A stretch of 64,000 nucleotides of DNA, taken from the NCBI RefSeq assembly GCF_002163835.1, contig NZ_CP019331.1, positions 2,269,001-2,333,000 of the forward strand. Reading direction: 5' to 3'. Below, one piece after another: positions 28,984-64,000 of the stretch. The DNA comes from Polaribacter sp. SA4-10 (GTDB lineage Bacteria > Bacteroidota > Bacteroidia > Flavobacteriales > Flavobacteriaceae). The translations under genes and the position numbers were made by a program. Positions within the stretch are counted from its first letter, which is position 1. Every line of letters begins with the position of its first letter. Under the pieces are notes generated by a model, which did no database searches, was not told the DNA's origin, and saw nothing but the letters and a program-made list of their open reading frames with translations.

Positions 28984-29442
28984 TTAACCTATTTTAGTAA
29001 TCTTAATTGCATTTCCATTAAAAACTACCTCATCATTTTGTTGCTTCCCTAATAACAATTTCCCTATTGGAGAAGAAACAGAAATCGCAAAAAAATCATC
29101 CCCACAAGCTGTTAACTTGCCTACACTTATACTTAAAAAATAATTGACTTTATCAGTATAAATAACACTTCCTAAATGTCCAATTTTAGACGTTTTAGAA
29201 ACACTAACTTTTGCTAAAATTTCTTTCATTTGGTTAATTCCAGCTAATTGCTGACCTGCTTTTTCCATTTCTAACTGTAGCATTGCTCTACCAGTTTCAT
29301 GCTTGTCACCAGCAGAACTTTTAGTTTCAGATTGCAAAGCTTTTTGGTTTGATGAAATGATTTCTTCAACCGTTTTTGCACGTTTATTTACAAACGCTTT
29401 ACATTGGCTAAAAAGCGCTTCTTTAATTTTTATTACCAACAT
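28984..29442 (-). CDS. GreA/GreB-C-like protein (often mislabelled 3-oxoacyl-ACP synthase)
   Basis: The 152-residue protein has an N-terminal helical part with SETKSSAGDKHETGRAMLQL, then a beta-rich end with SSPIGKLLLGKQQNDEVVF, matching the C-terminal domain of GreA (SPIGxALLGKxxGDEV). In Flavobacteriia such proteins are widely named 3-oxoacyl-ACP synthase, but no ketosynthase motif is present; the label probably spread from neighbouring fab genes. It may bind RNA polymerase. The start overlaps the YceI gene by 20 bases, at the end of the polyketide/lipid block. Confidence 0.75.
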   Translation of the reverse strand: MLVIKIKEALFSQCKAFVNKRAKTVEEIISSNQKALQSETKSSAGDKHETGRAMLQLEMEKAGQQLAGINQMKEILAKVSVSKTSKIGHLGSVIYTDKVNYFLSISVGKLTACGDDFFAISVSSPIGKLLLGKQQNDEVVFNGNAIKITKIG

Positions 29443-29965
29443 ACTTCATTTTAATATTCACTTCCTTAGAAAGCAAAAAACTACTGCCACCAACACCAAA
29501 GTCTCTTCTATTTAGAGAAAAATCAGTCAAAATTGTTACTGTGCTTTTAGAGGTGGTTACATTTAATATGGTTTCTACCCTTTTCTTGATTCCTTTAATT
29601 GTTATAAAACCTTTTAGTAAATATTTAGCGCTGGTTATTTTCTCTATTGCAATAGATTCAAATACAATATTCGGATACTTTTTAATATTAAAATAATCTA
29701 CCTCTAAAAGGTGTTTATCTCTAGCCTCTGAATCTGTAAATATTGATGATACGCCTATTTTTACATTCAAAAAACTTCCCTTTAAATTACTCGCACTAAA
29801 ATTACTGGAAGCTATAAATTGATTAAAATTACCAGGTACATTAAATCCAAAATTCTTTATTGTAAATGTAATTTTAGAGGCTGTTTTATCTTGCACCAAC
29901 TCTTGTGAAAAACAAGTGAAAGCACCCAATACAAAAACCAGTAATATAATTTTAAGTCTCATCAA
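29423..29965 (-). CDS. YceI-family periplasmic lipid-binding protein
   Basis: The 180-residue protein has a Sec signal (KIILLVFVLGAFTCFSQE) and a lipocalin-like beta-barrel: DKTASKITFTIKNFG, NLKGSFLNVKIGVSSIFT, a central IVFESIAIEKI strand, and FSLNRRDFGVGG near the end, all typical YceI elements. Family members bind polyprenyl chains or quinone-like lipids in the periplasm. Its place just after the PPTase and ACP genes makes it a candidate carrier for the cluster product. Four bases from the PPTase gene. Confidence 0.88.
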   Translation of the reverse strand: MMRLKIILLVFVLGAFTCFSQELVQDKTASKITFTIKNFGFNVPGNFNQFIASSNFSASNLKGSFLNVKIGVSSIFTDSEARDKHLLEVDYFNIKKYPNIVFESIAIEKITSAKYLLKGFITIKGIKKRVETILNVTTSKSTVTILTDFSLNRRDFGVGGSSFLLSKEVNIKMKYVGNKN

Positions 29966-29969
29966 TATA

Positions 29970-30536
29970 TTAAAATTTAAAACCTAAATTAAAAGCATAC
30001 GCTCCGTAATTTCCATGATGAGAAATTGAGCATGATTTTATTAATAATTCTTCTTGATAATAAAAAAGTGGCGCACCAATAGTTGTTTTTCTCTTCTCTA
30101 TGCCTTCAACTGAAACACCTGTTTCTGCTGCTAGTTTTATTTTCAAATCTAAATCTATTGCGCTTGGCAAACCAATTTCAGAAAAAATAACAGTTTCTTC
30201 TTTTTTTTCTCTGGCGATTGTAGACATATAAAGTGTATTAAAAACAGATACTGTATAAAATGTGTTTTCTTCAAAAACTACGATTCCTTTATCTTTACTA
30301 ATTACAGTACACTCAAACTTTTTAGGAGCAAAAAATCGTTTTTTATGCTTTTGAGTATAACATTTGTAAGCCGCTTCTTTCATACTCCAAAACAACCAAA
30401 CTTGTAAAAATGGATTTTGAGAATTTAAAATAAGTTTTTGTTCTTTAGCTGTAAATTGTTTTTCTAAAAACCCTTTGCGTTGCCAGTTACTTTGCGTTTT
30501 TGCCAATTCTAAATCAATAATATCATTACCAATCAT
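29970..30536 (-). CDS. 4'-phosphopantetheinyl transferase superfamily protein
   Basis: The 188-residue enzyme contains GNDIIDLELAK (metal/CoA-binding Asp) and FWSMKEAAYK (Glu and Lys), the two signatures of Sfp/AcpS-type transferases, and a C-terminal HHGNYGAYAF. It transfers phosphopantetheine from CoA to a carrier protein. Its start overlaps the stop of the ACP gene by one base, so it most likely activates that ACP. Confidence 0.9.
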   Translation of the reverse strand: MIGNDIIDLELAKTQSNWQRKGFLEKQFTAKEQKLILNSQNPFLQVWLFWSMKEAAYKCYTQKHKKRFFAPKKFECTVISKDKGIVVFEENTFYTVSVFNTLYMSTIAREKKEETVIFSEIGLPSAIDLDLKIKLAAETGVSVEGIEKRKTTIGAPLFYYQEELLIKSCSISHHGNYGAYAFNLGFKF

Positions 30537-30787
30537 TACGCTGATAGCTTTTCTTCAATAATTTCTATGGCCGCTTTTACAGAAAGCATTTTTTCCATAG
30601 AATCGTTATCTATTTCGATGTCAAACTCATCTTCAACATCCAAAATAACATCCACTAAATTTGCCGAATTTATTTTTAAATCATTAATAAAATCGGTTTC
30701 TTCGGTTAAGTTTTTAAAAGCTTCTTCATCTTGAATGTACGGTTTTACAATCGCTTTTAATTTTAAGATTAATTCTTCTTTTTTCAT
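30536..30787 (-). CDS. Acyl carrier protein with atypical attachment motif
   Basis: An 83-residue acidic four-helix carrier. The phosphopantetheine Ser is Ser41 in KINSANLVDVILDVEDEF; most ACPs have DSL here, whereas this one has NSA before NLVD. The downstream helix (VEDEFDIEIDNDSMEKM) is canonical. The change suggests a dedicated carrier recognised by the cluster's own PPTase. Three bases after the ketosynthase stop. Confidence 0.9.
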   Translation of the reverse strand: MKKEELILKLKAIVKPYIQDEEAFKNLTEETDFINDLKINSANLVDVILDVEDEFDIEIDNDSMEKMLSVKAAIEIIEEKLSA

Positions 30788-30790
30788 TTT

Positions 30791-32065
30791 TTATAAAATA
30801 TATTTTTTAAAGATAACACAAGCATTTACATCGCCAAAACCAAAACTTGCTTTTGCAATAATATCAATGTCTTTTTCTATTATTTTAGTCGGAATTTTTT
30901 GAGCATCAATCAATTCAGATATTTCTGGATGAATGTCTTCACAATTAATATTTGGGAATACAAACTGTTCTTTAATTTGAAGCACAGAAGCTACCGATTC
31001 AATAGCACCTGCAGCTGCTAAACAATGACCAACCATTGATTTTAACGAATTTATATAAGGAAAATCAGCTCCTTTTCTTTGTAAAGCATTGGTCCAATTT
31101 TCTATTTCTAAGCCGTCTTTTGAAGTGGCGGTTAAATGACCGTTTATCACATCTATTTCTGCTGAGGATATGTCTGAATCTAATAATGCATCTGTAATAC
31201 ATTTCTGAACAGCTTCTGAATTTGGAGCCGTTAATGTGCCACCATTTCTTTGTCCGCCAGAATTTATATTTCCTCCTAAAACTTCTGCATAAATAGTTGC
31301 TTTTCTTTCTAATGCACTTTCTAAAGACTCTAAAACTAGCGCTCCAGCTCCACTTCCTGGCACAAATCCTGATGCTGTTTCACTCATGGGTCTAGAGCCT
31401 TTCTCTGGCGTTTCATTGTGCTTATACGTCATCACGCGCATCGCATCAAAACCACCCCAAGTATATAAACTACTATCGCTAGAGCTACCCACTAACATGC
31501 GCTTTGCTTTTCCGTTTTTTATGCGTTCAAAACCTAATAACAATGCTTCTGTTCCGGTTGTACAAGCTGATGAATTTGTAGTCACTTGATTTCCAAAACC
31601 TAAAATTCCGCCTAAATAGGCAGAAATGCCACTCGCCATGGTTTGCACTACAGAAGTACTTCCTAAACGTCTTACTTTTTGATCATCAATCTTATAAATC
31701 GATTCTCTAAATTTCTCAATCCCTGAAGTTCCTGTGCCAAAAATTAACCCTGAATCATAATCTAAATTTGAATTTTCATCCACAGAAAAACCAGCATCTT
31801 TCCATGCGTCAATTCCCGCCATACAACCATATAAAATAGAAGTGCTATTAAATCCTCGTAATTGTAACGGAGATAAATATTCTAACTTTTTTTCTTCTGA
31901 AACTTCTGGAATTCCACCAATACAGCAAGAAAAACCTTTGTCTTTTAATTCTTGATGAAAAGTAATTCCTGACGTTCCAGATTTAATAGCCTTTGTAAAT
32001 GCTTTTAAACCAACACCATTTGGAGCAACAACTCCTAAACCAGTAATAACAACTCTATTTTTCAT
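30791..32065 (-). CDS. Beta-ketoacyl-ACP synthase (FabF-like)
   Basis: The 424-residue condensing enzyme has the Cys-His-His triad: Cys168 in NSSACTTGTEALLLG, His310 in INGHLTATSKDGLEIENW and His347 in SMVGHCLAAAGAIES. Length and GFGDVNACVIFKK close the KASII fold. It elongates acyl-ACP by decarboxylative condensation. Located beside its ACP and upstream dehydratase, it probably builds the acyl chain for this cluster rather than serving bulk fatty acid synthesis. Confidence 0.93.
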   Translation of the reverse strand: MKNRVVITGLGVVAPNGVGLKAFTKAIKSGTSGITFHQELKDKGFSCCIGGIPEVSEEKKLEYLSPLQLRGFNSTSILYGCMAGIDAWKDAGFSVDENSNLDYDSGLIFGTGTSGIEKFRESIYKIDDQKVRRLGSTSVVQTMASGISAYLGGILGFGNQVTTNSSACTTGTEALLLGFERIKNGKAKRMLVGSSSDSSLYTWGGFDAMRVMTYKHNETPEKGSRPMSETASGFVPGSGAGALVLESLESALERKATIYAEVLGGNINSGGQRNGGTLTAPNSEAVQKCITDALLDSDISSAEIDVINGHLTATSKDGLEIENWTNALQRKGADFPYINSLKSMVGHCLAAAGAIESVASVLQIKEQFVFPNINCEDIHPEISELIDAQKIPTKIIEKDIDIIAKASFGFGDVNACVIFKKYIL

Positions 32066-32078
32066 TTATGCTCAATTT

Positions 32079-32106
32079 ACTTGTGCTGAACTTGCTTCAG
32101 CATCTC
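32079..32106. repeat. Short palindromic interspersed repeat, copy 2
   Basis: Sequence ACTTGTGCTGAAC-TTGC-TTCAGCATCTC; arms TGCTGAA (32084-32090) and TTCAGCA (32096-32102) are perfect. It sits in the 44-base gap between the dehydratase and ketosynthase genes, so it would be transcribed as part of their mRNA. Confidence 0.7.
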
Positions 32107-32109
32107 TAT

Positions 32110-32550
32110 CTATTTAGCCACAATCATCCCTGAAATGGTTCCTCTAGAAACCAATTCGTTCTTTTGATTATACATTTTTACTGCACACTTTAATTTGTTA
32201 AATCTAAAATACTCTTTTTCTGAAACCACCTTTACTTTTTCATTGGGGTACACCGGTAAAAAGAAATCAATTTGATTTGACGTTAGTGCTATTTGTGGTT
32301 TTTTTTCTGATGAAATTTCCTCTTCTAGTAAATATATCCCCAAACAAACCACACCGATTTGAGCCATCGTTTCCGTCAAAATTACACCAGGTGTTACTGG
32401 GTTGTCTTTAAAATGACCTTTATAAAAAAACTCGCTTTCCTTGAATGTATAATTTCCTGAAACGCCATTTTCTGAAATTTCAGTAATTTCATCCACAAAC
32501 AAAAATGGTTTTTTATAGGGTAAATATTGTATGAGCTGTTTTTGGTCCAT
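32110..32550 (-). CDS. FabZ-like 3-hydroxyacyl-ACP dehydratase (hotdog fold)
   Basis: The 146-residue protein has the FabZ active-site region GHFKDNPVTPGVILTETMAQ, with catalytic His46 and Glu60. PYKKPFLFVDEI at the N-terminus and QIDFFLPVYPNEKVKV complete the hotdog fold. It removes water from 3-hydroxyacyl-ACP. Two bases from the reductase gene upstream; the short repeat at 32079 follows. Confidence 0.9.
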   Translation of the reverse strand: MDQKQLIQYLPYKKPFLFVDEITEISENGVSGNYTFKESEFFYKGHFKDNPVTPGVILTETMAQIGVVCLGIYLLEEEISSEKKPQIALTSNQIDFFLPVYPNEKVKVVSEKEYFRFNKLKCAVKMYNQKNELVSRGTISGMIVAK

Positions 32551-32552
32551 TT

Positions 32553-33350
32553 CTAATTTAAACTTTCGCCTCCATCTACTTTTATAATCGTTCCATTAAT
32601 CCAAGAAGCCTCGTCCTTACTTAACAAGTAAACTACATTCGCAACATCTTCTGGAGTTGTTAATTTTTTAAATGGATTTCTTTTTAAGGTATGATTTTTA
32701 ATTTCTTCACTATCAGGAATCATATTAAGAGAAGCGGTATTTGTAACACCAGCTTGAATGCAATTTGCTCTAATTCCGAATTCAGCAAACTCTAAAGCAA
32801 TGTTTCTTGTAATCGCTTCTAAAGTTGCTTTTGCAGCAGAAACCGCAGCATAATTTTTCCAAGGTTTTAAATTTCCTTCGCTTGTAAAACCAATAACTCT
32901 TGCGTCCTCAGCAAATAATTCTTTGTCAAAAATTGCCTGAAACCAATCATATAAACTTATTGCCATTGCATTAATGGTAATTTGGAAATCGTCATTTTGC
33001 AATACTTGGGTCTCTTCAGAATACATGGGTTTTAAGTTCCCTTTTGCTATCGAATGAACCAAGGTTTTTACTTTGCCTTTTCTTCCTAATTTTTCTTCAA
33101 AATCGTGAAGAACTTTAGCTCTTTTTTCTACGTTTAAAGCATCAATATTAAAAGAAATAAACTCAATGTTTTCATTTCTAATTTCATCAAAATCCTTTTC
33201 TATCGAAACAATTTGAGCTCTTGAGTTTCTATGAACCACACAAATATTCATACCGTGTTTTGCCAACTTTTTTGCAGTAGCCAAACCCAACCCCATTGAA
33301 CCTCCTAAAACAAACGCCCAATAATTTTTATCCTGAAATTCTCTTACCAT
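32553..33350 (-). CDS. FabI-like enoyl-ACP reductase / SDR
   Basis: The 265-residue protein has GGSMGLGLA as cofactor loop, TLVHSIAKGN (the HSIA motif of enoyl reductases) and NYAAVSAAKATLEA, where Tyr and Lys are six residues apart as in FabI, not three as in common SDRs. The second FabI Tyr, ten residues before, appears to be Ser (FTSEGNL), so activity may be altered. It would saturate the acyl chain or reduce a pathway intermediate. Overlaps the PKS gene stop by seven bases, showing coupling. Confidence 0.85.
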   Translation of the reverse strand: MVREFQDKNYWAFVLGGSMGLGLATAKKLAKHGMNICVVHRNSRAQIVSIEKDFDEIRNENIEFISFNIDALNVEKRAKVLHDFEEKLGRKGKVKTLVHSIAKGNLKPMYSEETQVLQNDDFQITINAMAISLYDWFQAIFDKELFAEDARVIGFTSEGNLKPWKNYAAVSAAKATLEAITRNIALEFAEFGIRANCIQAGVTNTASLNMIPDSEEIKNHTLKRNPFKKLTTPEDVANVVYLLSKDEASWINGTIIKVDGGESLN

Positions 33351-34396
33351 TCTAACAAAATTCTTTGTGCAGAAAACCCAGGGCCAAAACTCAGCATTAA
33401 ACCTCGTTCTCCTTTTGCCGGGTTTCTATCCATAAACCGCTCTAAAACATACAGCACCGTTGCGCTAGACATATTGCCATACAGTCTTAAAACCTCTTTT
33501 GTATCATCAATATTTTTACCCAAAACACCAAATAAGTCTTCTACAGTTTGCACGATTTTTTTTCCTCCAGGATGAAAAATCAAATGATTTATATCCTCAA
33601 TTGTTAAGTTATTTCTTTCTAAAAAAGGATGTACAATGGCCGGAAAATGGTCTGATATTTTCTGCGGAACTTCCTTGTCTAAGATCATTTGTAAACCTGT
33701 ATTAACCAAATTAAAACCCATCATTTCTGTAGCATCGTAAAAATGATACATGGCTTCATCAATAATTTCCGGGCCTTTATCTTCTTCATATGAAGACAAA
33801 ATTACACTAGATGCACCATCACCAAAAATAGCTGCACTTACAATATTTGTCATCGAAAAATCGTCTAATTGAAACGTGGCTGTTGGCGCTTCAACCGCAA
33901 TAACAACAGCTCTTTTGTTTGGATTTGATTTTAAAAAATTCTTTGCATAAATAATTCCCGAGACTCCTGCTGCACAGCCCATTTCCGTAACTGGTAAACG
34001 CACAATATCTTGTTTCATTCCTAAGGAATTAATTAAATATGCGTCCATCGAAGGAATCATAATTCCCGTGCAACTTACGGTAATAATATAATCTAAATCG
34101 GTAGCTTTTAGGTATGCTTTTTCTAATGCTTTTTTTAGAGATTGTTCCCCTAACTTTACCACTTCTCGTGCGTAAATATTGTTTTTCTCTTCAAAAGAAG
34201 TTGCTATAAAAACTTCTTCAGGGTCCATAATTGAATAGCGCTTATCAACGCCAGCTCCTTCAAAAAGTTTAATTACTTTTCGCTGAAAACGAGTATCTTG
34301 ATTTTGCATCCAGAGTTTTACAAACGGAATAATATCTTTTGTTTCTCTATAATATTTTGGCAGCTGTTTTGCAACTGATGTTATTTTTACTTTCAT
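33344..34396 (-). CDS. Type III polyketide synthase (chalcone/stilbene synthase family)
   Basis: The 350-residue enzyme has the type III PKS triad: Cys141 in TEMGCAAGVSG, His275 in HLIFHPGGKKI and Asn308 in LYGNMSSATV, with the FGPGFS segment (SFGPGFSAQ) near the end. The GNMSSATV form separates it from FabH. It extends an acyl starter with malonyl-CoA and cyclises the chain into pyrones or resorcinols. Next to it are starter-making fab genes downstream and a methyltransferase and flavoprotein upstream. Product unknown. Confidence 0.93.
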   Translation of the reverse strand: MKVKITSVAKQLPKYYRETKDIIPFVKLWMQNQDTRFQRKVIKLFEGAGVDKRYSIMDPEEVFIATSFEEKNNIYAREVVKLGEQSLKKALEKAYLKATDLDYIITVSCTGIMIPSMDAYLINSLGMKQDIVRLPVTEMGCAAGVSGIIYAKNFLKSNPNKRAVVIAVEAPTATFQLDDFSMTNIVSAAIFGDGASSVILSSYEEDKGPEIIDEAMYHFYDATEMMGFNLVNTGLQMILDKEVPQKISDHFPAIVHPFLERNNLTIEDINHLIFHPGGKKIVQTVEDLFGVLGKNIDDTKEVLRLYGNMSSATVLYVLERFMDRNPAKGERGLMLSFGPGFSAQRILLEW

Positions 34397-34454
34397 AATA
34401 TTTTTTTCTCACAATTATTTTTTTTCACGGAATTCACAAGTTTAAATCTCAAAA

Positions 34455-35174
34455 TCAAAACTCTGTTCTTATTAATATCCACTGATATCGAAAAGCCCAT
34501 TTCCATGATATTTGTGGTTTTATATTTAATGTTTGAGAGATCATCACTAAATCTTTTCGTTTAAACCCTCTTAAAACGGAAGTTAAGCCGTCTTCAATAA
34601 TCATCTTATTTTTGATAAATACCGATAATAACATAAATAAATAATATGCCAATTTATGTCTGTGCAAGTCGTTTACAACCACTCCTATTTTTGTCTGCTT
34701 TAATGTGTTTTCTAAAAAAGACACCAATTGTTCTTCTTTAAAGTGGTGCAGAAATAATGTTGCTAAAACAACATCAAATTTTCTTTTTTTGAACTCCTTA
34801 GAAAAAATATCTTCCGTTTTAAAACTTAATTCATGAAATTCGGTCGATAGTTCATTTGCATATTCTATTGCTGTTGGGTTTGCGTCGATTCCTAACAACT
34901 TCATTTTGTAGCCATTTTTTCTACCAAACTTAGCAACATCCCTTAAAATATCGCCATGTCCACAGCCAATATCTACGATGCTTAATTCCTGTTCTTTTGG
35001 ATGGTTTTTTAAAATTTTTTTCAGCGAATTTACGGTGACTAAATTGCCGCCTAACCAACGATTTATATTTTCTAATTTATCTAAAGTATCACGTAACAAA
35101 TCTCCTCCAATAGAAAAATCGTCCATCAACTCTTCCTTGTCTGTTCTGTTTTTTGTGTTGATGAAAAAATCCAT
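34455..35174 (-). CDS. SAM-dependent methyltransferase
   Basis: A 239-residue class I methyltransferase: motif I VDIGCGHGDILRDV, motif II LLGIDANPTAIEYA, and VLATLFLHHF as motif IV-like. The C-terminal half is helical and basic with a hydrophobic segment (YYLFMLLSVF) that may touch the membrane. Directly linked to the flavoprotein (one-base overlap) and 58 bases before the PKS, as in phenolic-lipid clusters where such enzymes methylate the polyketide ring. Confidence 0.88.
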   Translation of the reverse strand: MDFFINTKNRTDKEELMDDFSIGGDLLRDTLDKLENINRWLGGNLVTVNSLKKILKNHPKEQELSIVDIGCGHGDILRDVAKFGRKNGYKMKLLGIDANPTAIEYANELSTEFHELSFKTEDIFSKEFKKRKFDVVLATLFLHHFKEEQLVSFLENTLKQTKIGVVVNDLHRHKLAYYLFMLLSVFIKNKMIIEDGLTSVLRGFKRKDLVMISQTLNIKPQISWKWAFRYQWILIRTEF

Positions 35175-36310
35175 TAAACTTTCATTAATTTTCCGTGAGT
35201 TTGTTTGATAATAATGGGTAATAAAAAAGGTAATTTCTTTAAAACTTGAAGTAAAACAGCTGCAATTTTATCTTTTCTAAACAACATTGCAATGAAATGA
35301 CCCGTTTTTAAACGAAAACTAAATTTTTTATTCCACTGCCTAATATATTGCTTTTCGAGTTCATTTCTCGAATTTAACGCTCCATTCAAGTAATTTAGAA
35401 TTAATTTAGACGCCATTTGAGCAGATTGAATTGCCATACTCATTCCGTTTCCGCATAAAGGGTGAATCATTCCTGCAGAATCGCCACACATTAAAATATG
35501 ATTTTCTACTGGTTTTTTTGTTTCAAAAGAAATCTGACTTATCGTTAATGGTTTTTCAAAAATAGCTTCGGAAGTAGTAAATATCTCTTTTAAAAATTGA
35601 TTTTTAAAAACTACTTTCTCTTGAAAATCCTCAATATTTTTATATTTTTTGAAGGATAAAAAATTGGTGATATAACACAAATTAATCGCGTTATTTTCTA
35701 CTTTAGAAACACCACAATATCCTCCTTTAAAATTATGAAGCGCTACTAAATCTTCTGGAAAATTTCCTTTTACATGAAGTTTCACTCCTAAATAAGGTGA
35801 TTTTTTTTTAATGAAATTACGGTTCATTTTTACATCCAAAAGACTTCTTTTCCCAAATGCTCCAATTGTGATTTTAGAGGTGTATGTTTTATTTTCTTTC
35901 GTTTGTATTAAAAAAGAATCATTGGAGTAATCAACATTAACAACAATGTCTTTTAATAGGGTTACCCCATTTTTCACAGCTTTTTTTGACAACTCAAAAT
36001 CCAGCTTATACCGAGAAATTCCAAATCCGCCCAAAGGTAATTTTGCTGAAATTAAATTACCTTTAGTCGTAGAAAGTTGAAACTTATTAATCTTTACTGC
36101 CCCAAAATTAAAAGGATTCACATTAAGAAATTCTAAATACGGTAGTACTTCATTAGAAATATATTCCCCACAAACTTTGTGTTTTGGGTAGTCATTTTTT
36201 TCAATCAATAAAACTTTTTTATCGAATTTAGATAGGTGAATTGCATTACACAAACCAGCCAAACCTCCTCCAATTATAATCACATCAAATTTTTTAGGGT
36301 TTTCTTTCAT
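35174..36310 (-). CDS. FAD-dependent oxidoreductase, geranylgeranyl-reductase-like
   Basis: A 378-residue flavoprotein: FAD loop VIIIGGGLAGLCNAIHL, LIEKNDYPKHKVCGEYIS (the KVCGE motif of GGR-like flavoproteins) and MCGDSAGMIHPLCGNGMSMA. Related enzymes reduce or hydroxylate lipids. Start lies four bases after the stop of the next FAD enzyme upstream. In this context it could hydroxylate the polyketide ring to a quinol or saturate chains; which one cannot be decided from sequence. Confidence 0.9.
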   Translation of the reverse strand: MKENPKKFDVIIIGGGLAGLCNAIHLSKFDKKVLLIEKNDYPKHKVCGEYISNEVLPYLEFLNVNPFNFGAVKINKFQLSTTKGNLISAKLPLGGFGISRYKLDFELSKKAVKNGVTLLKDIVVNVDYSNDSFLIQTKENKTYTSKITIGAFGKRSLLDVKMNRNFIKKKSPYLGVKLHVKGNFPEDLVALHNFKGGYCGVSKVENNAINLCYITNFLSFKKYKNIEDFQEKVVFKNQFLKEIFTTSEAIFEKPLTISQISFETKKPVENHILMCGDSAGMIHPLCGNGMSMAIQSAQMASKLILNYLNGALNSRNELEKQYIRQWNKKFSFRLKTGHFIAMLFRKDKIAAVLLQVLKKLPFLLPIIIKQTHGKLMKV

Positions 36311-36314
36311 AGTG

Positions 36315-37424
36315 CTAATTAAGTAAATCTGCCAATTCCTTACCTACTAAACTACCAATTGCAATACCCATGCCTCCTAAACGAACGCCACAAAACACAT
36401 TATCTGAAAGCTGTTTAACGATTGCTTTTTTCTGATTTCCAACACCCATAATTCCACTCCATTTGTGTTCAATTTCAAAGGCTGTATTTGGTAAAATTGT
36501 CTCTTTTAAGATTTTTTCTAATTGATTTTGAATAATTTCTGTCTGACCAAATACGGTTGTTTCTTCCGTTTTAAAATCCAGGTTTCTTCCTCCTCCAAAA
36601 AGAATTCTATTATCTATATTCCTAAAGTAGTAATATCCCTTTTCTAAATGAAAAGTGCCTTTTATCTGTAGGTTTTTAATTGGCTTTGTAATTAAAACTT
36701 GTGCTCTTACTGGTTGTACGTTTTCTTGTAAAAGTTCCGAAGCAAAACCATTGGTTGTAATAAATATTTTTTTAGTATAAAAATCTAACCTGTTGGTTTT
36801 TACGTGTATTTTATTTTGATTTTCTATAAAGTGTTCAACACTAATATTATTTAAAATTTTAACGCCTAAATTTTGAACTTTCTGTAGCAGTTCAAACGCC
36901 ATTTTTCCGGTATCAATTTGACCTTCAAAATTGTTTACAATATATTGTTGGTGCACTTTTTTAAAACTAAAAGTATTATCAGAAACTGAAAAAACATCAG
37001 TATTAAAAATCGGTTTTAATAACGCATTAATTTCATTTTTACGAGAAATACATTCCGAAAAAAAAGCTTGGTCTTCACACAATTCAAACCCTTTATTTTG
37101 CTGAAAATCGATATTGTTATCCCCTAAATTTTTACGCAGTAATTGTAAACCTTTCCATCGCTTATCTACTAAATTAAAAACCTCTTCTTCCGTATGAGAG
37201 TCTAAATCGTCTATTAATTCAGATAGGCTTCCAAAACAAGCAAAACCAGCGTTTTTAGTACTTGCGCCTTGTGGCAACATGCCTTTTTCTAGCATTAAAA
37301 TTTTTGCTTTAGGGTACTTTTTCTTCAATTCTAAAGCGCAATTTAAACCCACAATTCCACTACCAACAATGGTAAAATCAATGTTTGTAAACCATTCTTT
37401 TAATTCCCAGTAACTGTAATCCAT
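36315..37424 (-). CDS. FAD-dependent oxidoreductase of the DAO family
   Basis: The 369-residue protein has FTIVGSGIVGLNCALELK as FAD site, LEKGMLPQGASTKNAG (the GAS-x-NAG motif of DAO-type enzymes) and SGIMGVGNQKKAIVKQL and VRLGGMGIAIGS near the end. This is the glycine oxidase/DadA fold; amine or amino-acid oxidation is the usual activity. Four bases from the GGR-like gene, so it may be a cluster member or a bystander. Cytoplasmic. Confidence 0.87.
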   Translation of the reverse strand: MDYSYWELKEWFTNIDFTIVGSGIVGLNCALELKKKYPKAKILMLEKGMLPQGASTKNAGFACFGSLSELIDDLDSHTEEEVFNLVDKRWKGLQLLRKNLGDNNIDFQQNKGFELCEDQAFFSECISRKNEINALLKPIFNTDVFSVSDNTFSFKKVHQQYIVNNFEGQIDTGKMAFELLQKVQNLGVKILNNISVEHFIENQNKIHVKTNRLDFYTKKIFITTNGFASELLQENVQPVRAQVLITKPIKNLQIKGTFHLEKGYYYFRNIDNRILFGGGRNLDFKTEETTVFGQTEIIQNQLEKILKETILPNTAFEIEHKWSGIMGVGNQKKAIVKQLSDNVFCGVRLGGMGIAIGSLVGKELADLLN

Positions 37425-58115: not shown

Positions 58116-61100
58116 TTATTCAACAGCTATTTTTTTAGTCCAGTTTCCATTAGACTTATCTCGAAGCTGAACAATATAAACGCCTGTGCTTAAGTTTGGC
58201 AACACTAAACTAGTGTTTGCTTTGGAAGTAAACTTTGTTGAGAAAACATTTTTTCCCATTACATTATATACCTCTACTATAGCTTCCTCTTCTAATAAAC
58301 CTTTTATATGCAGCTCTTTTGAGTTGCCTACATAATACATGTTTATCGCTGTTAAATTTTCATTAGGCACACTTAATACCGCTGATCTAACATGTAAAAA
58401 GAATCTTCCTGCAGTTGTACTGGCTTCTGTTAGTGTTACTGTATAAATGCTTGCATCATCTAAACGTTTAAAAACACCTAATTCTTTATCTTCTATAAAT
58501 ACTTTATTTGCCTCGGAAGGTAAATTGGTTGCGTTAGCAGAAAAAGTAACTTCTCCAGCAGGTGCAATAACACCAATAGGGATTACCATCGCATCAAAAT
58601 TACTGTCTGGTAAAGATTGTATGGCTAATTTTTTATCTACACTACCAGTTACCAAACCTGTAAAGAGTTCTAAAGAAGCACTAACACCCTCAAAAATGCT
58701 ACTGTCATAACCATTATCAAAACCTGTTGTTGTTTTTCTTATATAAAATATTTCTGTTTCTTTAGCCGCTTCATTCTGTGAAACCTTTAGTTTAATTTCT
58801 GTTCGGTTGTTTGTAGCCTTTAAAAAAGTATCTGTAGTTTGATGCGATTGCATTGCTTTAGTAAAACTCAACGAGGTAGTATTACCCGTAGTTGCCGAAG
58901 TTTTTACAAAAAACCCTTGCCCTGGAGCAATGTATGTTACATCTGTAGAGGCTAAATTTACAGCCTTATACACACTACCTTGATCCCAAAACCAAAGTGT
59001 AGCCTCTTCTAACACAGCTGCTGCATCTGGTAGTGCTTTATTTACAGTTAATAAATTTTCTGTAGCATTTATTGCATTTGCATTAATAGCAATAAAAGAA
59101 GGGTAAGGATTCCCTACTAAATTAAAAGCATTGTCTGCATTGTTTATGGTTACATCCTTATTTATGGTAGCCATTGTACCTCTATAATTAAGTGTGCTCG
59201 CTGCTGTTAGTTTTATAGAATACCCTGTACCTAAAGAAAAATTACCAGAACCTGTAGCGCCACTTTGATAATAATCCCAACCTGGTGTTGCATTGTTATA
59301 AGGTGCTAAACCACGGTTATTGCCTGTACCACCAACAGCTAAACTTGTTGCACTTGCAAAGACATCAATGTCTTGTCCTGCAACAGGACTAGATACCATA
59401 TACCAGTCTGAAGTAGCAATATTTCTTTTATAATTTACAACAGCGTTTACAAAATAATCTGCCATAAAACTTGCGCCGTTGTTAATTTCTATGGTGTTTG
59501 CAGATATCGTTTTTGTAGCCGTCGGGTAACGTTCACTACCGCTCGGAATTACCACATAATCATTGCTTTTAGGAATCGAATTGTTAGACCAGTTGTAACT
59601 ATTTTCCCAATCAGTATTATCATCTCCTTGCCAAATAACATGACCTGTAACCTGTACACTTACAGTACCGGAAGAAGCACCATTTCCATCATTATAAGGA
59701 GCTCCAATTGCCACCACAGAGCCATCGGAACTTAAGCTCACTAACCATCCTGATTCATCTCCAGCTGCTTCCCCATAAATGTCTGCGCCTATTTTGGTCC
59801 AAGTATTATCTATATTTTTATACAAACGAACAGATCCTGAAGCATTACCATTTCCATCATTATAAGAAGCTCCAACTGCCACCACAGAACCATCAGAACT
59901 TAAACTCACTGACTTTCCTGATTGATCTCCAGCTACTTCGCCATCAATGTCAAAGCCTATTTGGACCCAAATATCTCCTCTATTTCTATACAAACGAACG
60001 TGTCCTGAATCTACCCGTCCACCACCACTTCCATTATTGGTAATTGCTCCAATTGCCAATACAGAGCCATCAGAACTTAAACTCACTGACCATCCTGATT
60101 GACCTTCTGCTTCTTCCCCATCAAAGTCTCCGTCTATTTGGACCCAACTACCAGCTATATCTGTACCTGTATTTTTATACAAACGAACGTGTCCTGAATT
60201 AGCATTATTATAAGGAGCTCCAATTGCCACCACAGATCCATCAGAACTTAAACTCACTGAAAATCCTGATTGATCTCCAACTGCTTCCCCATCAATGTCA
60301 GCGCCTATTTGTGCCCAAGAAGCAGTTCCAACTATATATTTATACAAACGAACCGATCCTGAATCAGCACCATTTCCATCATTACCAATAGCTCCAATTG
60401 CCACCACAGATCCATCGGAACTTAAACTCACTGACCATCCTGATTTATCTTCAACTGCTTCCCCATCGATGTCTGTGCCTATTTGGGCCCAACTACCACC
60501 TATGTTTTTATACAAACGAACCGATCCTAAATTTGATCCATTTACTCCAGCATTATAAGGAGCTCCAATTGCCACCACAGATCCATCGGAACTTAAACTC
60601 ACTGAGGTTCCTGATTGATCATTAGCTGCTTCGCCATCAATTTCTGCGCCGATTTGAGCCCAAGTGCCACCTGTATTTTTATACAAACGAACCGATCCTG
60701 CATCAGCACCATTTCCATCATTAAAAGGAGCTCCAATTGCCATCACAGCACCATCGGAACTTAAACTCACGGACCTTCCTGATTCATCTCCAGCTGCCTC
60801 CCCATCAATGTCTACGCCTATTTGGGTTTTAACATAGTTTGGGTTTTTATACACCCGAACCGATCCTGAATTTGATCCATTTCCATCATTCAAAATCGCT
60901 CCAATTGCCACCACAGCGCCATCGGAACTTAAACTCACTGACCATCCTGATTCATCTCCAGCTGCTTCGCCATCAATGTCTATGCCTATTTGGGCCCAAG
61001 TACCAGCTATATCTGTACCTGTATTTTTATACAAACGAACCGATCCTGAATTTGATCCATTTCCAACATTATAAGGAGCTCCAGTTGCCACCACAGCACC

Positions 61101-64000
61101 ATCGGAACTTAAACTCACTGACCATCCTGATTCATCTCCAGCTGCTTCCCCATCAAGGTCTGCGCCTATTTGGGCCCAAGTACCCCCTGTGTTTTTATAC
61201 AAACGAACCGATCCTGAATCAGTGCCACCTCCATCATTATAAGTAGCTCCAATTGCCACCACAGATCCATCGGAACTTAAACTCACTGAAATTCCTGATT
61301 GATCTCCTGTTGCTTCGCCATCAATGTCTGCGCCTATTTTGGCCCAAGTATCATTTGTATTTTTATACAAACGAACGGATCCTGAATCTGATCCAGTTCC
61401 ATCATTACCAATAGCTCCAATTGCCACCACAGATCCATCGGAACTTAAACTCACTGAAATTCCTGATTGATCTCCAGCTGCTTCCCCATCAATGTCTGCG
61501 CCGATTTGGGCCCAAGTACCACCTGTATTTTTATACAAACGAACAGATCCTGAATTAGCACCATTTCCATCATTATAACGAGCTCCAATTGCCACCACAG
61601 ATCCATCGGAACTTAAACTCACTGAATAACCTGATTGATCTCCAGCTGTTTCCCCATCAATGTCTCCAGCTATTTGATCCCAACTACCACTTGTATTTTT
61701 ATACAAACGAACGTGACCTATATTAGCATTATTATAAGGAGCTCCAATTGCGACCACAGATCCATCGGAACTTAAACTCACTGAATGACCGGATTGATCT
61801 CCAGCTGCTTCGCCATCAATATCTAAGCCTATTTGAGCCCAAGTGCCACTTGTATTTTTATACAAACGAACCGATCCTGAATTAGCACCATTTCCATCAT
61901 TATAACGAGCTCCAATTGCCATCACAGAGCCATCGAAACTCAAACTCACTGACTTTCCTGATTCATCATTAGCTGCTTCGCCATCAATGTCTGCGCCTAT
62001 TTGGGTTTTAACATAGTTTGGGTTTTTATACACCCGAACCGATCCTGAATCAGTACCATTTAATCCATCATTACCAATAGCTCCAATTGCCACCACAGAT
62101 CCATCGGTACTTAAACTCACTGAACTTCCTGAGTAATCATAAGCTACTTCCCCATCAATGTCTGCGCCTATTTGGGCCCAAGTACCCCCTGTGTTTTTAT
62201 ACAAACGAACCGATCCTGAACGAGTACCATTTCCATCGTTATAAATCCCTCCAATTGCCACCACAGCACCATCGGAACTTAAACTCACTGAAGTTCCTGA
62301 TTGATCTCCAGCTGTTTCTCCATCAATGTCTGCGCCGATTTGGGCCCAAGTACCACCTGTATTTTTATACAAACGAACAGATCCTGAATTAGCACCATTT
62401 TCATCATTATAAATCCCTCCAATTGCCACCACAGATCCATCGGAACTTAAACTCACTGAAATTCCTGAGAAATCTCCAGCTGCTTCGCCATCAATGTCTG
62501 CGCCGATTTGGTCCCAAGTACCACTTGTGTTTTTATACAAACGAACCGATCCTGAACTACTACCATTTCCAGCATTACGAGAAGCTCCAATTGCCACCAC
62601 AGCACCATCGGAACTTAAACTCACTGAAGTTCCTAAGTAATCTCCAGCTGCTTCGCCATCAATGTCTGCGCCGATTTGGTCCCAAGTACCACCTGTATTT
62701 TTATACAAACGAACCGATCCTGAACTAGTACCATTTCCATCATTATAAAGAGCTCCAATTGCCACCACAGATCCATCGGAACTTAAACTCACTGACCTTC
62801 CTGATTCATCTCCAGCTGCTTCCCCATCAATGTCTGCGCCTATTTGATCCCAAGTACCACCTGTATTTTTATACAAACGAACCGATCCTGAACGATAACC
62901 ATTTCCAGCATTACGAGGAGCTCCAATTGCCACCACAGATCCATCGGTACTTAAACTCACTGAACTTCCTGAGTAATCTCCAGCTGCTTCGCCATCAATA
63001 TCTGCGCCTATTTGGGCCCAAGTACCAGCTGTATTTTTATACAAACGAACGGATCCTGAACGAGTACCATTTCCATCATTATAAATCCCTCCAATTGCCA
63101 TCACAGATCCATCGAAACTTAAACTCACTGAACTTCCTGAGTAATCATCAGCTGCTTCCCCATCAATGTCTGCGCCTATTTGGGCCCAAGGATCATTTGT
63201 ATATTTATACAAACGAACCGATCCTGAATAAGCACCATTTAATCCATCATTATAACGAGCTCCAATTGCCACCACAGATCCATCGGAACTTAAACTCACT
63301 GAAAATCCTGATTCATCATTAGCTGCCTCCCCATCAATGTCTGCGCCTATTTGGGCCCAACTACCACTTGTATTTTTATACAAACGAACAGATCCTGAAT
63401 TTGATCCATTTCCATCATTATTACGAGCTCCAATTGCCACCACAGATCCATCGGAACTTAAACTCACTGACCATCCTGATTGATCTTGAGCTGCTTCCCC
63501 ATCAAGGTCTCCGCCTATTTGGACCCAACTACCACTTGTATTTTTATACAAACGAACCGATCCTGAATTAGCACCATTTTCATCATTATTAGGAGCTCCA
63601 ATTGCCACCACAGATCCATCGGAACTTAAACTCACTGAATGACCGGATTGATCTTGAGCTGCTTCCCCATCAATGTCTGCGCCTATTTGATCCCAAGTAC
63701 CACCTGTATTTTTATACAAACGAACAGATCCTGAATAAGCACCATTTAATCCATCATTAAGAAGAGCTCCAATTGCCACCACAGATCCATCGGAACTTAA
63801 ACTCACTGAAATTCCTGATTGATCTCCAGCTGCTTCCCCATCAATGTCTGCGCCGATTTGGGCCCAAGTACCACCTGTATTTTTATACAAACGAACAGAT
63901 CCTGAATTAGCACCATTTCCATCATTATAACGAGCTCCAATTGCCACCACAGATCCATCGGAACTTAAACTCACTGAAATTCCTGATTGATCATAAGCTG
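58116..64000 (-). CDS. Giant T9SS-secreted repeat protein (5' part missing)
   Basis: The frame is open from 64000 leftward to a stop at 58116, so the N-terminus and signal lie beyond the edge. It has about 26 repeats of some 56 residues, each like SVSLSSDGSVVAIGAPYNDG followed by SGSVRLYKNTGGTWAQIGAD and IDGEAAGDQSG, an FG-GAP/beta-propeller-like pattern. A linker domain (VIWQGDDNTDWENSYNWSNN and onward) follows, then a carbohydrate-adhesin-like middle and a type A sorting domain (ends VYIVQLRDKSNGNWTKKIAV). Predicted to be exported by T9SS and anchored on the surface, probably as an adhesin. Confidence 0.9.
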   Translation of the reverse strand, partial: AYDQSGISVSLSSDGSVVAIGARYNDGNGANSGSVRLYKNTGGTWAQIGADIDGEAAGDQSGISVSLSSDGSVVAIGALLNDGLNGAYSGSVRLYKNTGGTWDQIGADIDGEAAQDQSGHSVSLSSDGSVVAIGAPNNDENGANSGSVRLYKNTSGSWVQIGGDLDGEAAQDQSGWSVSLSSDGSVVAIGARNNDGNGSNSGSVRLYKNTSGSWAQIGADIDGEAANDESGFSVSLSSDGSVVAIGARYNDGLNGAYSGSVRLYKYTNDPWAQIGADIDGEAADDYSGSSVSLSFDGSVMAIGGIYNDGNGTRSGSVRLYKNTAGTWAQIGADIDGEAAGDYSGSSVSLSTDGSVVAIGAPRNAGNGYRSGSVRLYKNTGGTWDQIGADIDGEAAGDESGRSVSLSSDGSVVAIGALYNDGNGTSSGSVRLYKNTGGTWDQIGADIDGEAAGDYLGTSVSLSSDGAVVAIGASRNAGNGSSSGSVRLYKNTSGTWDQIGADIDGEAAGDFSGISVSLSSDGSVVAIGGIYNDENGANSGSVRLYKNTGGTWAQIGADIDGETAGDQSGTSVSLSSDGAVVAIGGIYNDGNGTRSGSVRLYKNTGGTWAQIGADIDGEVAYDYSGSSVSLSTDGSVVAIGAIGNDGLNGTDSGSVRVYKNPNYVKTQIGADIDGEAANDESGKSVSLSFDGSVMAIGARYNDGNGANSGSVRLYKNTSGTWAQIGLDIDGEAAGDQSGHSVSLSSDGSVVAIGAPYNNANIGHVRLYKNTSGSWDQIAGDIDGETAGDQSGYSVSLSSDGSVVAIGARYNDGNGANSGSVRLYKNTGGTWAQIGADIDGEAAGDQSGISVSLSSDGSVVAIGAIGNDGTGSDSGSVRLYKNTNDTWAKIGADIDGEATGDQSGISVSLSSDGSVVAIGATYNDGGGTDSGSVRLYKNTGGTWAQIGADLDGEAAGDESGWSVSLSSDGAVVATGAPYNVGNGSNSGSVRLYKNTGTDIAGTWAQIGIDIDGEAAGDESGWSVSLSSDGAVVAIGAILNDGNGSNSGSVRVYKNPNYVKTQIGVDIDGEAAGDESGRSVSLSSDGAVMAIGAPFNDGNGADAGSVRLYKNTGGTWAQIGAEIDGEAANDQSGTSVSLSSDGSVVAIGAPYNAGVNGSNLGSVRLYKNIGGSWAQIGTDIDGEAVEDKSGWSVSLSSDGSVVAIGAIGNDGNGADSGSVRLYKYIVGTASWAQIGADIDGEAVGDQSGFSVSLSSDGSVVAIGAPYNNANSGHVRLYKNTGTDIAGSWVQIDGDFDGEEAEGQSGWSVSLSSDGSVLAIGAITNNGSGGGRVDSGHVRLYRNRGDIWVQIGFDIDGEVAGDQSGKSVSLSSDGSVVAVGASYNDGNGNASGSVRLYKNIDNTWTKIGADIYGEAAGDESGWLVSLSSDGSVVAIGAPYNDGNGASSGTVSVQVTGHVIWQGDDNTDWENSYNWSNNSIPKSNDYVVIPSGSERYPTATKTISANTIEINNGASFMADYFVNAVVNYKRNIATSDWYMVSSPVAGQDIDVFASATSLAVGGTGNNRGLAPYNNATPGWDYYQSGATGSGNFSLGTGYSIKLTAASTLNYRGTMATINKDVTINNADNAFNLVGNPYPSFIAINANAINATENLLTVNKALPDAAAVLEEATLWFWDQGSVYKAVNLASTDVTYIAPGQGFFVKTSATTGNTTSLSFTKAMQSHQTTDTFLKATNNRTEIKLKVSQNEAAKETEIFYIRKTTTGFDNGYDSSIFEGVSASLELFTGLVTGSVDKKLAIQSLPDSNFDAMVIPIGVIAPAGEVTFSANATNLPSEANKVFIEDKELGVFKRLDDASIYTVTLTEASTTAGRFFLHVRSAVLSVPNENLTAINMYYVGNSKELHIKGLLEEEAIVEVYNVMGKNVFSTKFTSKANTSLVLPNLSTGVYIVQLRDKSNGNWTKKIAVE
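59662..64000 (-). repeat. Tandem 168-bp coding repeats in the giant cargo gene
   Basis: About 26 in-frame units of around 168 bases (range roughly 159-180 from small in-frame indels in the loop NDGNGANSG and near the Trp). Units at 61413-61626 and 63765-63978 are identical over 214 bases and lie exactly 14 x 168 bases apart. The array continues past the window edge. Confidence 0.95.

Follow-up and report, generated by a model that had tools for sequence, protein, structure and literature searches.

A type III polyketide synthase locus conserved together with fab-like genes in the Flavobacteriaceae

Genes of the block and its edges

The core block lies on the minus strand at positions 29970–36310 of the window (the whole 64-kb stretch of DNA that was analysed) and encodes a flavoprotein, a class I methyltransferase, a type III polyketide synthase (PKS), a FabL-like reductase, a FabZ-like dehydratase, a FabF-like ketosynthase (KS), an acyl carrier protein (ACP) and a PPTase. 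Every open reading frame that a preliminary description had placed in the PKS block is there, at the coordinates given and on that strand. From a DinB gene through a GreA-like gene the genes have spacings of −20 to +58 nt. Pfam and NCBIfam models labelled the products as GreA-like, YceI, PPTase, ACP, FabF-like KS, FabZ-like, SDR, type III PKS, class I methyltransferase and GGR-superfamily flavoprotein; a number of these assignments scored under the curated cut-offs. No Rfam element matched at gathering scores anywhere in the 64-kb window, and a tRNA search of the window found none.

The type III PKS (33344–34396, minus strand) has both chalcone/stilbene synthase domains, N-terminal (PF00195, 78 bits) and C-terminal (PF02797, 74.8 bits), each against a cut-off of 27. 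Its Cys141-His275-Asn308 triad, noted earlier, is intact and invariant in ortholog alignments of 24 and 44 rows, whose organisms may overlap. The top NCBIfam match is DpgA, at 181 bits far under the cut-off of 425. The closest solved relative is Mycobacterium tuberculosis Pks11, which is described in PMC6274091 as using long-chain acyl starters. At a Rhizobium locus, a type III PKS had neither a methyltransferase nor an FAD protein among the neighbours listed.

The flavoprotein (35174–36310, minus strand) belongs to the GGR superfamily or group A FAD proteins and is probably a ring hydroxylase. It scored 102.1 bits with the geranylgeranyl reductase model TIGR02032 (cut-off 158.8) and showed the group A FAD hydroxylase/halogenase fold across its full length; fold comparison set it apart neither from hydroxylases nor from the GGR-like structure 3oz2. 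Members of this family also occur without a type III PKS in the parts of Bernardetia and Hymenobacter plasmids that were read, and the Hymenobacter copy adjoins an isonitrile synthase. The PRK06202-like methyltransferase (34455–35174, minus strand) exceeded the cut-offs of PF13847 and PF13649 and reached 144.6 bits with NF004851, below its cut-off of 243. Only class I models matched it, and PF04140 was absent from its matches; it is thus not of the ICMT type, and ICMT-type methyltransferases do adjoin other type III PKSs. The best 120 of 5575 proteins retrieved with it (87–96% identical) gave no functional lead.

The Tyr-x6-Lys motif is the active-site signature of FabL. In the cluster SDR (32553–33350, minus strand) Tyr167 is kept in 44/45 aligned rows and Lys174 in 45/45, and the top PDB match is 3oic, a FabL. 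The top NCBIfam model is also FabL (NF005975), at 146.6 bits against a cut-off of 328, so that the protein is best called FabL-like rather than FabL. The FabI-like label given to it earlier should be replaced.

Next come the FabZ-like 3-hydroxyacyl-ACP dehydratase (32110–32550, minus strand; PF07977) and the FabF-like elongating KS (30791–32065, minus strand; PF00109/PF02801). The KS forms a distinct clade, in which C168, H310, K342, H347 and a GFGD loop are kept in 71/71 rows. A threonine stands in 64 of these rows where the housekeeping FabF of the genome carries isoleucine, at a position that lines the acyl pocket. The genome search turned up two KSs of the FabF type, which are 34% identical to each other; by sequence, the cluster KS is distinct from the housekeeping enzyme. 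No plasmid match to the KS clade was found at E 1e-60.

The dedicated ACP (30536–30787, minus strand) has an NSA/NSS serine motif, [IV]NS[AS][NH]L in 75/75 rows, and scored below the cut-offs of NF002148 (44 bits against 71) and, just barely, of PF00550 (20 against 20.8). The Sfp-type PPTase (29970–30536, minus strand; PF01648, 48.7 bits) shares its PF01648 match with a single other protein of the genome. In 9/80 named loci a gene for an MMPL-type transporter, labelled from one scanned member, comes after that for the PPTase.

The edges of the block are a property of the lineage and lie outside the core. The YceI-like protein (29423–29962, minus strand; PF04264, 92 bits) is probably exported and lipid-binding, with an N-terminus that looks signal-like by eye; its start as given is TTG, followed by an ATG codon, and it is one of four YceI proteins in the genome. 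Its suggested role as a carrier of the product is a guess: YceI lies within about 20 kb in only 16/50 ortholog and 20/80 named loci. The GreA/GreB-C-terminal-like protein (28984–29442, minus strand; PF01272, 25.5 bits, cut-off 26.9) and a DAO-type FAD oxidoreductase (36315–37424, minus strand; labelled by eye) are likewise lineage-specific and probably not part of the pathway. GreA (9/50 and 31/80 loci), DAO (9/50 and 29/80), GNAT (6/80) and DinB (10/80) genes stand beside the core in a minority of loci and were rejected as pathway members. Some relatives have fabH-accB-accC-like genes nearby, labelled by eye and by KAS III similarity.

Conservation and co-inheritance

We examined 50 fetched ortholog loci and 80 named loci; the two sets share some organisms, and contig ends truncate some of the loci. 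The order flavoprotein, methyltransferase, type III PKS, (SDR), FabZ, KS, ACP, and the strand, are kept among the genes present in 50/50 and 80/80 loci. All six core genes, the SDR not being counted, were found in 46/50 ortholog and 73/80 named loci. Among the ortholog loci the flavoprotein, methyltransferase and PKS were each found in 50 and FabZ, KS and ACP in 47; among the named loci the counts were 78 for the flavoprotein, 79 for the methyltransferase, 77 for FabZ, 76 for KS and 74 for ACP. The PPTase was found at 17/50 and 58/80 loci. Because the trio is present in every ortholog locus, FabZ, KS and ACP in 47/50 each, and order and strand are constant, the grouping of these genes is beyond chance.

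The genes are also inherited together. In a sample of 149 Flavobacteriaceae genomes from 148 genera, 48 had an ortholog of the PKS and 47 an ortholog of the KS; the KS never occurred without the PKS, and the PKS occurred once without the KS. Of three genomes from the same genus, two carried the PKS and the third lacked both PKS and KS. The preliminary description had asked whether the set is conserved as a unit, and had let the linked-pathway idea depend on the fab-like genes staying next to the PKS in related genomes. They do stay there, and they are co-inherited with it; thus, the idea of a linked pathway survives.

Two genomes depart from this arrangement. One (G138) keeps flavoprotein, methyltransferase, PKS and SDR and lacks KS, FabZ and ACP at the locus, with no KS found elsewhere in the genome. 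In the other (G144) the KS is on another contig and unrelated genes follow the SDR. A Brumimicrobium locus (L160; Crocinitomicaceae) and a Bizionia locus (L165; Flavobacteriaceae) share 92, 86, 81 and 70% identity in PKS, KS, flavoprotein and methyltransferase, respectively, and it is suggested that the cluster moved between families as a unit. Mantel correlations of the PKS with the core genes (0.59–0.82) were rejected as support. They reflect relatedness, because the flanks correlate about as well (YceI 0.79, DAO 0.67, GreA 0.65).

The SDR is missing from 6/50 ortholog and 28/80 named loci, and a genome-wide search found no replacement in 6/6 genomes tested that lack it at the locus. The FabL-like reductase is dispensable to the cluster. 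As it is absent from some loci and unreplaced in these genomes, the saturation of the starter may vary. The earlier remark that a dedicated 3-ketoacyl reductase is not obvious agrees with our search: a tblastn run through 130 loci with the cluster SDR as query, with family scans mainly of ORFs that resemble window proteins, yielded besides the cluster SDR two weak stray matches (L100, 27%; L160, 24%), and we therefore excluded a linked ketoreductase from the core. A housekeeping FabG in this genome scores above its cut-off. The genome has seven SDR matches besides the cluster gene, and the five of them that were scanned for a housekeeping enoyl reductase of this type matched no enoyl-reductase model at E <= 1e-60.

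Comparison with known systems

The Streptomyces srsABC genes encode a type III PKS, a methyltransferase and a flavoprotein, SrsB being an ICMT-type methyltransferase; to our knowledge they include no fab-like set. The parallel drawn earlier with srsABC holds for the gene trio, but the methyltransferase here is of class I. Flexirubin and dialkylresorcinol clusters make resorcinol lipids of Bacteroidota with discrete fatty-acid-type enzymes. The PKS of the window, in contrast, matched the model of their condensing enzyme DarB far under its cut-off (26.8 against 550 bits), and the FabF-type KSs found genome-wide are the two described above.

A closer parallel than srsABC is the trio of methyltransferase, oxidoreductase and type III PKS in the hierridin (hid) clusters of cyanobacteria, as these are defined in PMC8086630, and in plasmid loci. 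Hierridin is a methylated alkylresorcinol for which a C14 acyl-ACP starter is proposed, and one hierridin-like cluster carries a prenyltransferase (PMC8086630). All 50 ortholog loci have this trio in order. The core quoted for hierridin comprises three genes, however, and the likeness is one of gene kinds; a KS/FabZ/ACP/PPTase set is not part of that quoted description. Flavoprotein, methyltransferase and PKS also occur together in other phyla. For instance, sphingomonad plasmid loci (Sphingobium L192, Novosphingobium L224) resemble the cluster in joining ACP, KS, PKS, methyltransferase and FAD genes, but their KSs are 23–25% identical to the cluster KS and neither FabZ nor PPTase is listed in the stretches read. 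The Novosphingobium locus has an SDR (24% identical) about 2.7 kb away on the opposite strand.

In the ars operon of Azotobacter vinelandii a dedicated FAS passes acyl chains to type III PKSs, giving alkylresorcinol and alkylpyrone lipids (PMC3098273, PMC6274091). The ars synthase is described as a multidomain type I enzyme, whereas here KS, DH, ER-like and ACP genes are single-domain ORFs (83–424 aa) without a linked ketoreductase. A survey of 2,680 genomes puts the share of type III PKS clusters among the BGCs of Flavobacteriaceae at 10.74% (PMC10734526); in the text consulted, such surveys count these clusters and name no product. Searches of open-licence PMC papers turned up no title or abstract opening that reports this set of genes or a product of it.

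A model for the pathway

Our model starts from what we observed directly, namely the gene content of the block, the catalytic residues of PKS, KS and SDR, the conserved gene order and the near-perfect co-occurrence of KS and PKS. On balance, we think it probable that the block is a phenolic-lipid (or alkylpyrone) pathway in which the type III PKS is fed by discrete type II elongation enzymes of its own, as a private module. A phenolic lipid or alkylpyrone made from a dedicated acyl-ACP starter had been suggested before. Conservation and co-inheritance of the fab-like genes with the PKS speak for a linked pathway; the product class we retain as a proposal. The ars operon, with its dedicated FAS, and the hierridin cluster, with its proposed acyl-ACP starter, are precedents for such a supply of acyl chains.

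We propose that the PPTase turns the dedicated ACP into its active form. The cluster KS would load an acyl chain, probably from the housekeeping FAS, and use malonyl units to lengthen it on that ACP. The ketone would be reduced by the housekeeping FabG, the FabZ-like enzyme would dehydrate, and the FabL-like SDR would saturate the chain; where the SDR has been lost, a housekeeping enoyl reductase may take its place. The acyl-ACP made or held by the module would then prime the type III PKS, which would add malonyl units and cyclise the product to a resorcinol or pyrone. Finally, the methyltransferase would methylate the ring and the flavoprotein would probably hydroxylate it. The result would probably be a lipid of the envelope. 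Our inferences comprise all substrates, the length of the starter, the type of ring, the sequence of the tailoring reactions, the steps borrowed from housekeeping enzymes and the location.

Could the private KS and FabZ, with a borrowed FabG, instead build an unsaturated chain, be it only where the SDR is missing or in all lineages, leading to a polyenyl phenol or pyrone that is possibly a pigment? Several lineages drop the reductase, with no copy elsewhere in the six genomes tested, and keep KS, FabZ and ACP, and the clade-specific GFGD loop and the threonine of the KS fit such a chain. We nevertheless regard this as unlikely, since the SDR is present in this window and in 52/80 named loci with its motif nearly invariant, the cluster has no dedicated ketoreductase, and a housekeeping enoyl reductase could serve the dedicated ACP. 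It is less probable still that the PKS makes a malonyl-only aromatic unit in the manner of DpgA, its top NCBIfam match, with KS, FabZ and ACP providing a second chain that is joined on as in dialkylresorcinols. The conserved core contains no recurrent further condensing enzyme, ligase or acyltransferase (the scan covering mainly clustered ORFs), Pks11 takes long-chain starters, and the PKS keeps its cysteine, whereas DpgA is discussed in PMC6274091 as working without a catalytic cysteine.

A meroterpenoid or prenyl-quinone pathway, in which the flavoprotein would be a genuine geranylgeranyl reductase with an isoprenoid tail as its substrate, seems very improbable. The superfamily score, the fold comparison and the prenyltransferase of the one hierridin-like cluster favour it, as does a distant locus (L109) where a type III PKS and methyltransferase are accompanied by UbiA and by a flavoprotein of 43% identity. 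However, no prenyltransferase was recognised among the ORF families recurrent in the operon stretches (four families scanned), the conserved KS, FabZ and ACP indicate a fatty chain, and the GGR model scored under its cut-off. That the fab-like genes are mere neighbours serving general lipid synthesis is the least credible of all. The fabH-accB-accC-like genes near the block in some relatives point that way, but the KS ortholog is absent from all 101 sampled family genomes that lack the PKS ortholog, and the cluster KS differs from the housekeeping FabF.

On the reading we prefer, a private module feeding the PKS, the co-inheritance of a dissociated elongation module makes the starter question of this type III PKS experimentally addressable. 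We also put forward, as a long shot, a wider hypothesis: type III PKSs with dissociated KS, FabZ and ACP could define a widespread, so far undescribed group of envelope lipids in Bacteroidota. Within it, losing the FabL-like enzyme would turn a saturated side chain into a polyenyl one, and flexirubins and dialkylresorcinols would thereby be joined by a third family of lipids or pigments of the resorcinol type. The set of module and PKS may account for many type III PKS matches of marine Bacteroidota at once.

The gene block and its surroundings

On the minus strand of the window, genes labelled DinB, GNAT and DAO (all three by eye) are followed by those for the flavoprotein, methyltransferase (MT), type III PKS (T3PKS), SDR, FabZ, ketosynthase (KS), ACP, PPTase, YceI and GreA. 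Within this DinB-to-GreA block the spacing runs from -20 to +58 nt (overlaps to gaps). Family searches bore out the gene labels of the preliminary description, with refinements. The best NCBIfam model for the SDR is FabL. The SDR scored 146.6 bits against this model, whose cut-off is 328, and its nearest solved relative is FabL (3oic). Among solved structures, M. tuberculosis Pks11 is closest to the T3PKS. In a search that may omit very near records, the T3PKS shares 95% identity with its counterpart in Polaribacter sp. IC066 and 92% with the P. irgensii protein.

The genome is a single contig of 3,435,762 bases. An Rfam search of the window gave zero matches, and a search for tRNA genes there found none. 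At the higher-GC end of the window lies the gene for a 1952-aa protein (58116-63974, minus strand) with near-identical repeats of about 50 residues (SVSLSSDGSVVAIGA...SGSVRLYKNT) and, by eye, a C-terminal type IX secretion-like sorting tail.

Conservation and co-inheritance of the locus

A T3PKS search of 149 Flavobacteriaceae genomes (E <= 1e-40) gave 49 matches, of which 48, the window's own counted, share 65-100% identity; the remaining one, in genome G072, shares 31%. Across 395 Bacteroidota genomes (E <= 1e-30) there were 169 matches, and among the matches listed 33 stand at >=66% and the rest at <=36%. This gap in the listed identities sets the ortholog group sharply apart. Of the 33, again among the matches listed, three lie outside the family. 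Within the genus, the T3PKS is present in G234 and G454 and not in G131.

We fetched the DNA surrounding the 47 family orthologs other than the window's own and the three from outside the family (first set, 50 loci, some shortened by contig ends, e.g. L051) and, additionally, around 10 distant T3PKSs (that of G072 and nine from the phylum search). A named-genome scan, which confirmed at least 582 relatives among at least 590 pattern matches, provided a second set, consisting of the best 80 of these relatives. The two sets are not independent, since some organisms occur in both. The flavoprotein was found in 50/50 and 78/80 loci of the first and second sets, MT in 50/50 and 79/80, FabZ in 47/50 and 77/80, KS in 47/50 and 76/80, and ACP in 47/50 and 74/80. 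PPTase was found in 17/50 and 58/80; this protein is divergent and tblastn may miss copies in the first set. The complete six (flavoprotein, MT, T3PKS, FabZ, KS and ACP) occur in 46/50 and 73/80 loci, and the order and strand of the genes present are the same in all 50 and all 80.

In the same 149 family genomes, a KS ortholog (E <= 1e-90) occurs in 47, every one of them among the 48 with a T3PKS ortholog. The exception, G138, keeps flavoprotein, MT, T3PKS and SDR adjoining unrelated genes. In G144 the SDR and, beyond it, unrelated genes come after the T3PKS, and the KS is on a different contig; thus either the cluster has been broken up in this genome or its assembly is in error. The earlier proposal that the T3PKS and the fab-like genes form one linked pathway is therefore well supported, by the kept order and strand and by the confinement of the KS ortholog to genomes with the T3PKS ortholog.

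Correlation of the T3PKS distance matrix with those of the core genes gave r 0.59-0.82 (KS 0.82, MT 0.80, flavoprotein 0.78), values reached by 0/999 permutations. As the flanks correlate too (YceI 0.79, DAO 0.67, GreA 0.65), these values reflect relatedness and give no support for linkage. More telling is a comparison of Brumimicrobium L160 (Crocinitomicaceae) with Bizionia L165 (Flavobacteriaceae), where T3PKS is 92%, KS 86%, flavoprotein 81% and MT 70% identical. Judged from these identities, this looks like movement of the genes as one unit.

The elongation module

KS residues Cys168, His310, Lys342 and His347 are kept in 71/71 rows, and the ACP motif [IV]NS[AS][NH]L in 75/75. The KS loop reads GFGD; its counterpart in housekeeping FabF is GFGG. 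Genome searches found one further KS of FabF type (34% identical, exceeding the FabF cut-off), one PPTase besides that of the cluster, and a housekeeping FabG above its cut-off.

The SDR, whose YX6K tyrosine is kept in 44/45 rows, was counted in 45/50 and 53/80 loci, or 44/50 and 52/80 without strays in L100 (27%, opposite strand) and L160 (24%). It is thus missing near the T3PKS in 6/50 and 28/80 loci, including eight of the nine loci L111-L118 and L121. Genome-wide searches (E <= 1e-20) of the six first-set genomes concerned gave zero matches elsewhere; three control genomes gave exactly one match each, located in the cluster. The SDR is dispensable, and its absences leave KS, FabZ and ACP as the constant set. 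We infer that enoyl reduction would be optional or borrowed, and ketone reduction borrowed.

Five loci (L111, L114, L115, L135 and L140) carry one ORF family at the same place, between T3PKS/SDR and FabZ. The one member scanned (L135) is an IS200-type Y1 transposase (PF01797), and the SDR is absent in three of the five (L111, L114 and L115).

Flanks, relatives and overall reading

DAO was found in 9/50 and 29/80 loci and GreA in 9/50 and 31/80. The position of YceI varies with lineage. The genome has four YceI genes, so about 2% of loci would have one within 20 kb by chance, against an observed 16/50 and 20/80 (the loci being related). Directly 3' of PPTase, 9/80 second-set loci have an ORF of an MMPL-type family (one member scanned), e.g. 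L128:15503-17752, a candidate lipid exporter. Together, the YceI and MMPL-type neighbours hint at envelope transport. In several lineages a hydrophobic protein of 145-147 aa (ORF families x5 and c20, equated by eye) follows ACP or PPTase, e.g. L170:14716-15150; a second methyltransferase adjoins it in some, and a Pfam scan of one member gave zero matches.

Hierridin clusters, as described in parts of PMC8086630, comprise a T3PKS, a methyltransferase and an oxidoreductase; their proposed starter is a C14 acyl-ACP. In Azotobacter, according to passages of PMC3098273 and PMC6274091, a type I FAS supplies the T3PKSs. In two surveys, T3PKS clusters make up 9% (PMC7440613) or 10.74% (PMC10734526) of Flavobacteriaceae BGCs, and the parts of these surveys drawn on here name no product for them; neither 'T3PKS' nor 'type III' occurs in the main text of a Bacteroidetes-wide survey (PMC9248904). 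A distant Bacteroidota locus (L109:7934-12662) combines a T3PKS-MT pair, a UbiA prenyltransferase and a flavoprotein of 43% identity, which suggests a prenylated relative of the pathway. On a Hymenobacter plasmid (L223:4119-9128), a 36% identical flavoprotein adjoins an isonitrile synthase and a TauD-type dioxygenase.

In sum, the cluster is probably a variation on the phenolic-lipid T3PKS theme. The trio of flavoprotein, MT and T3PKS is itself widespread, and the unusual part is the private, discrete elongation module.
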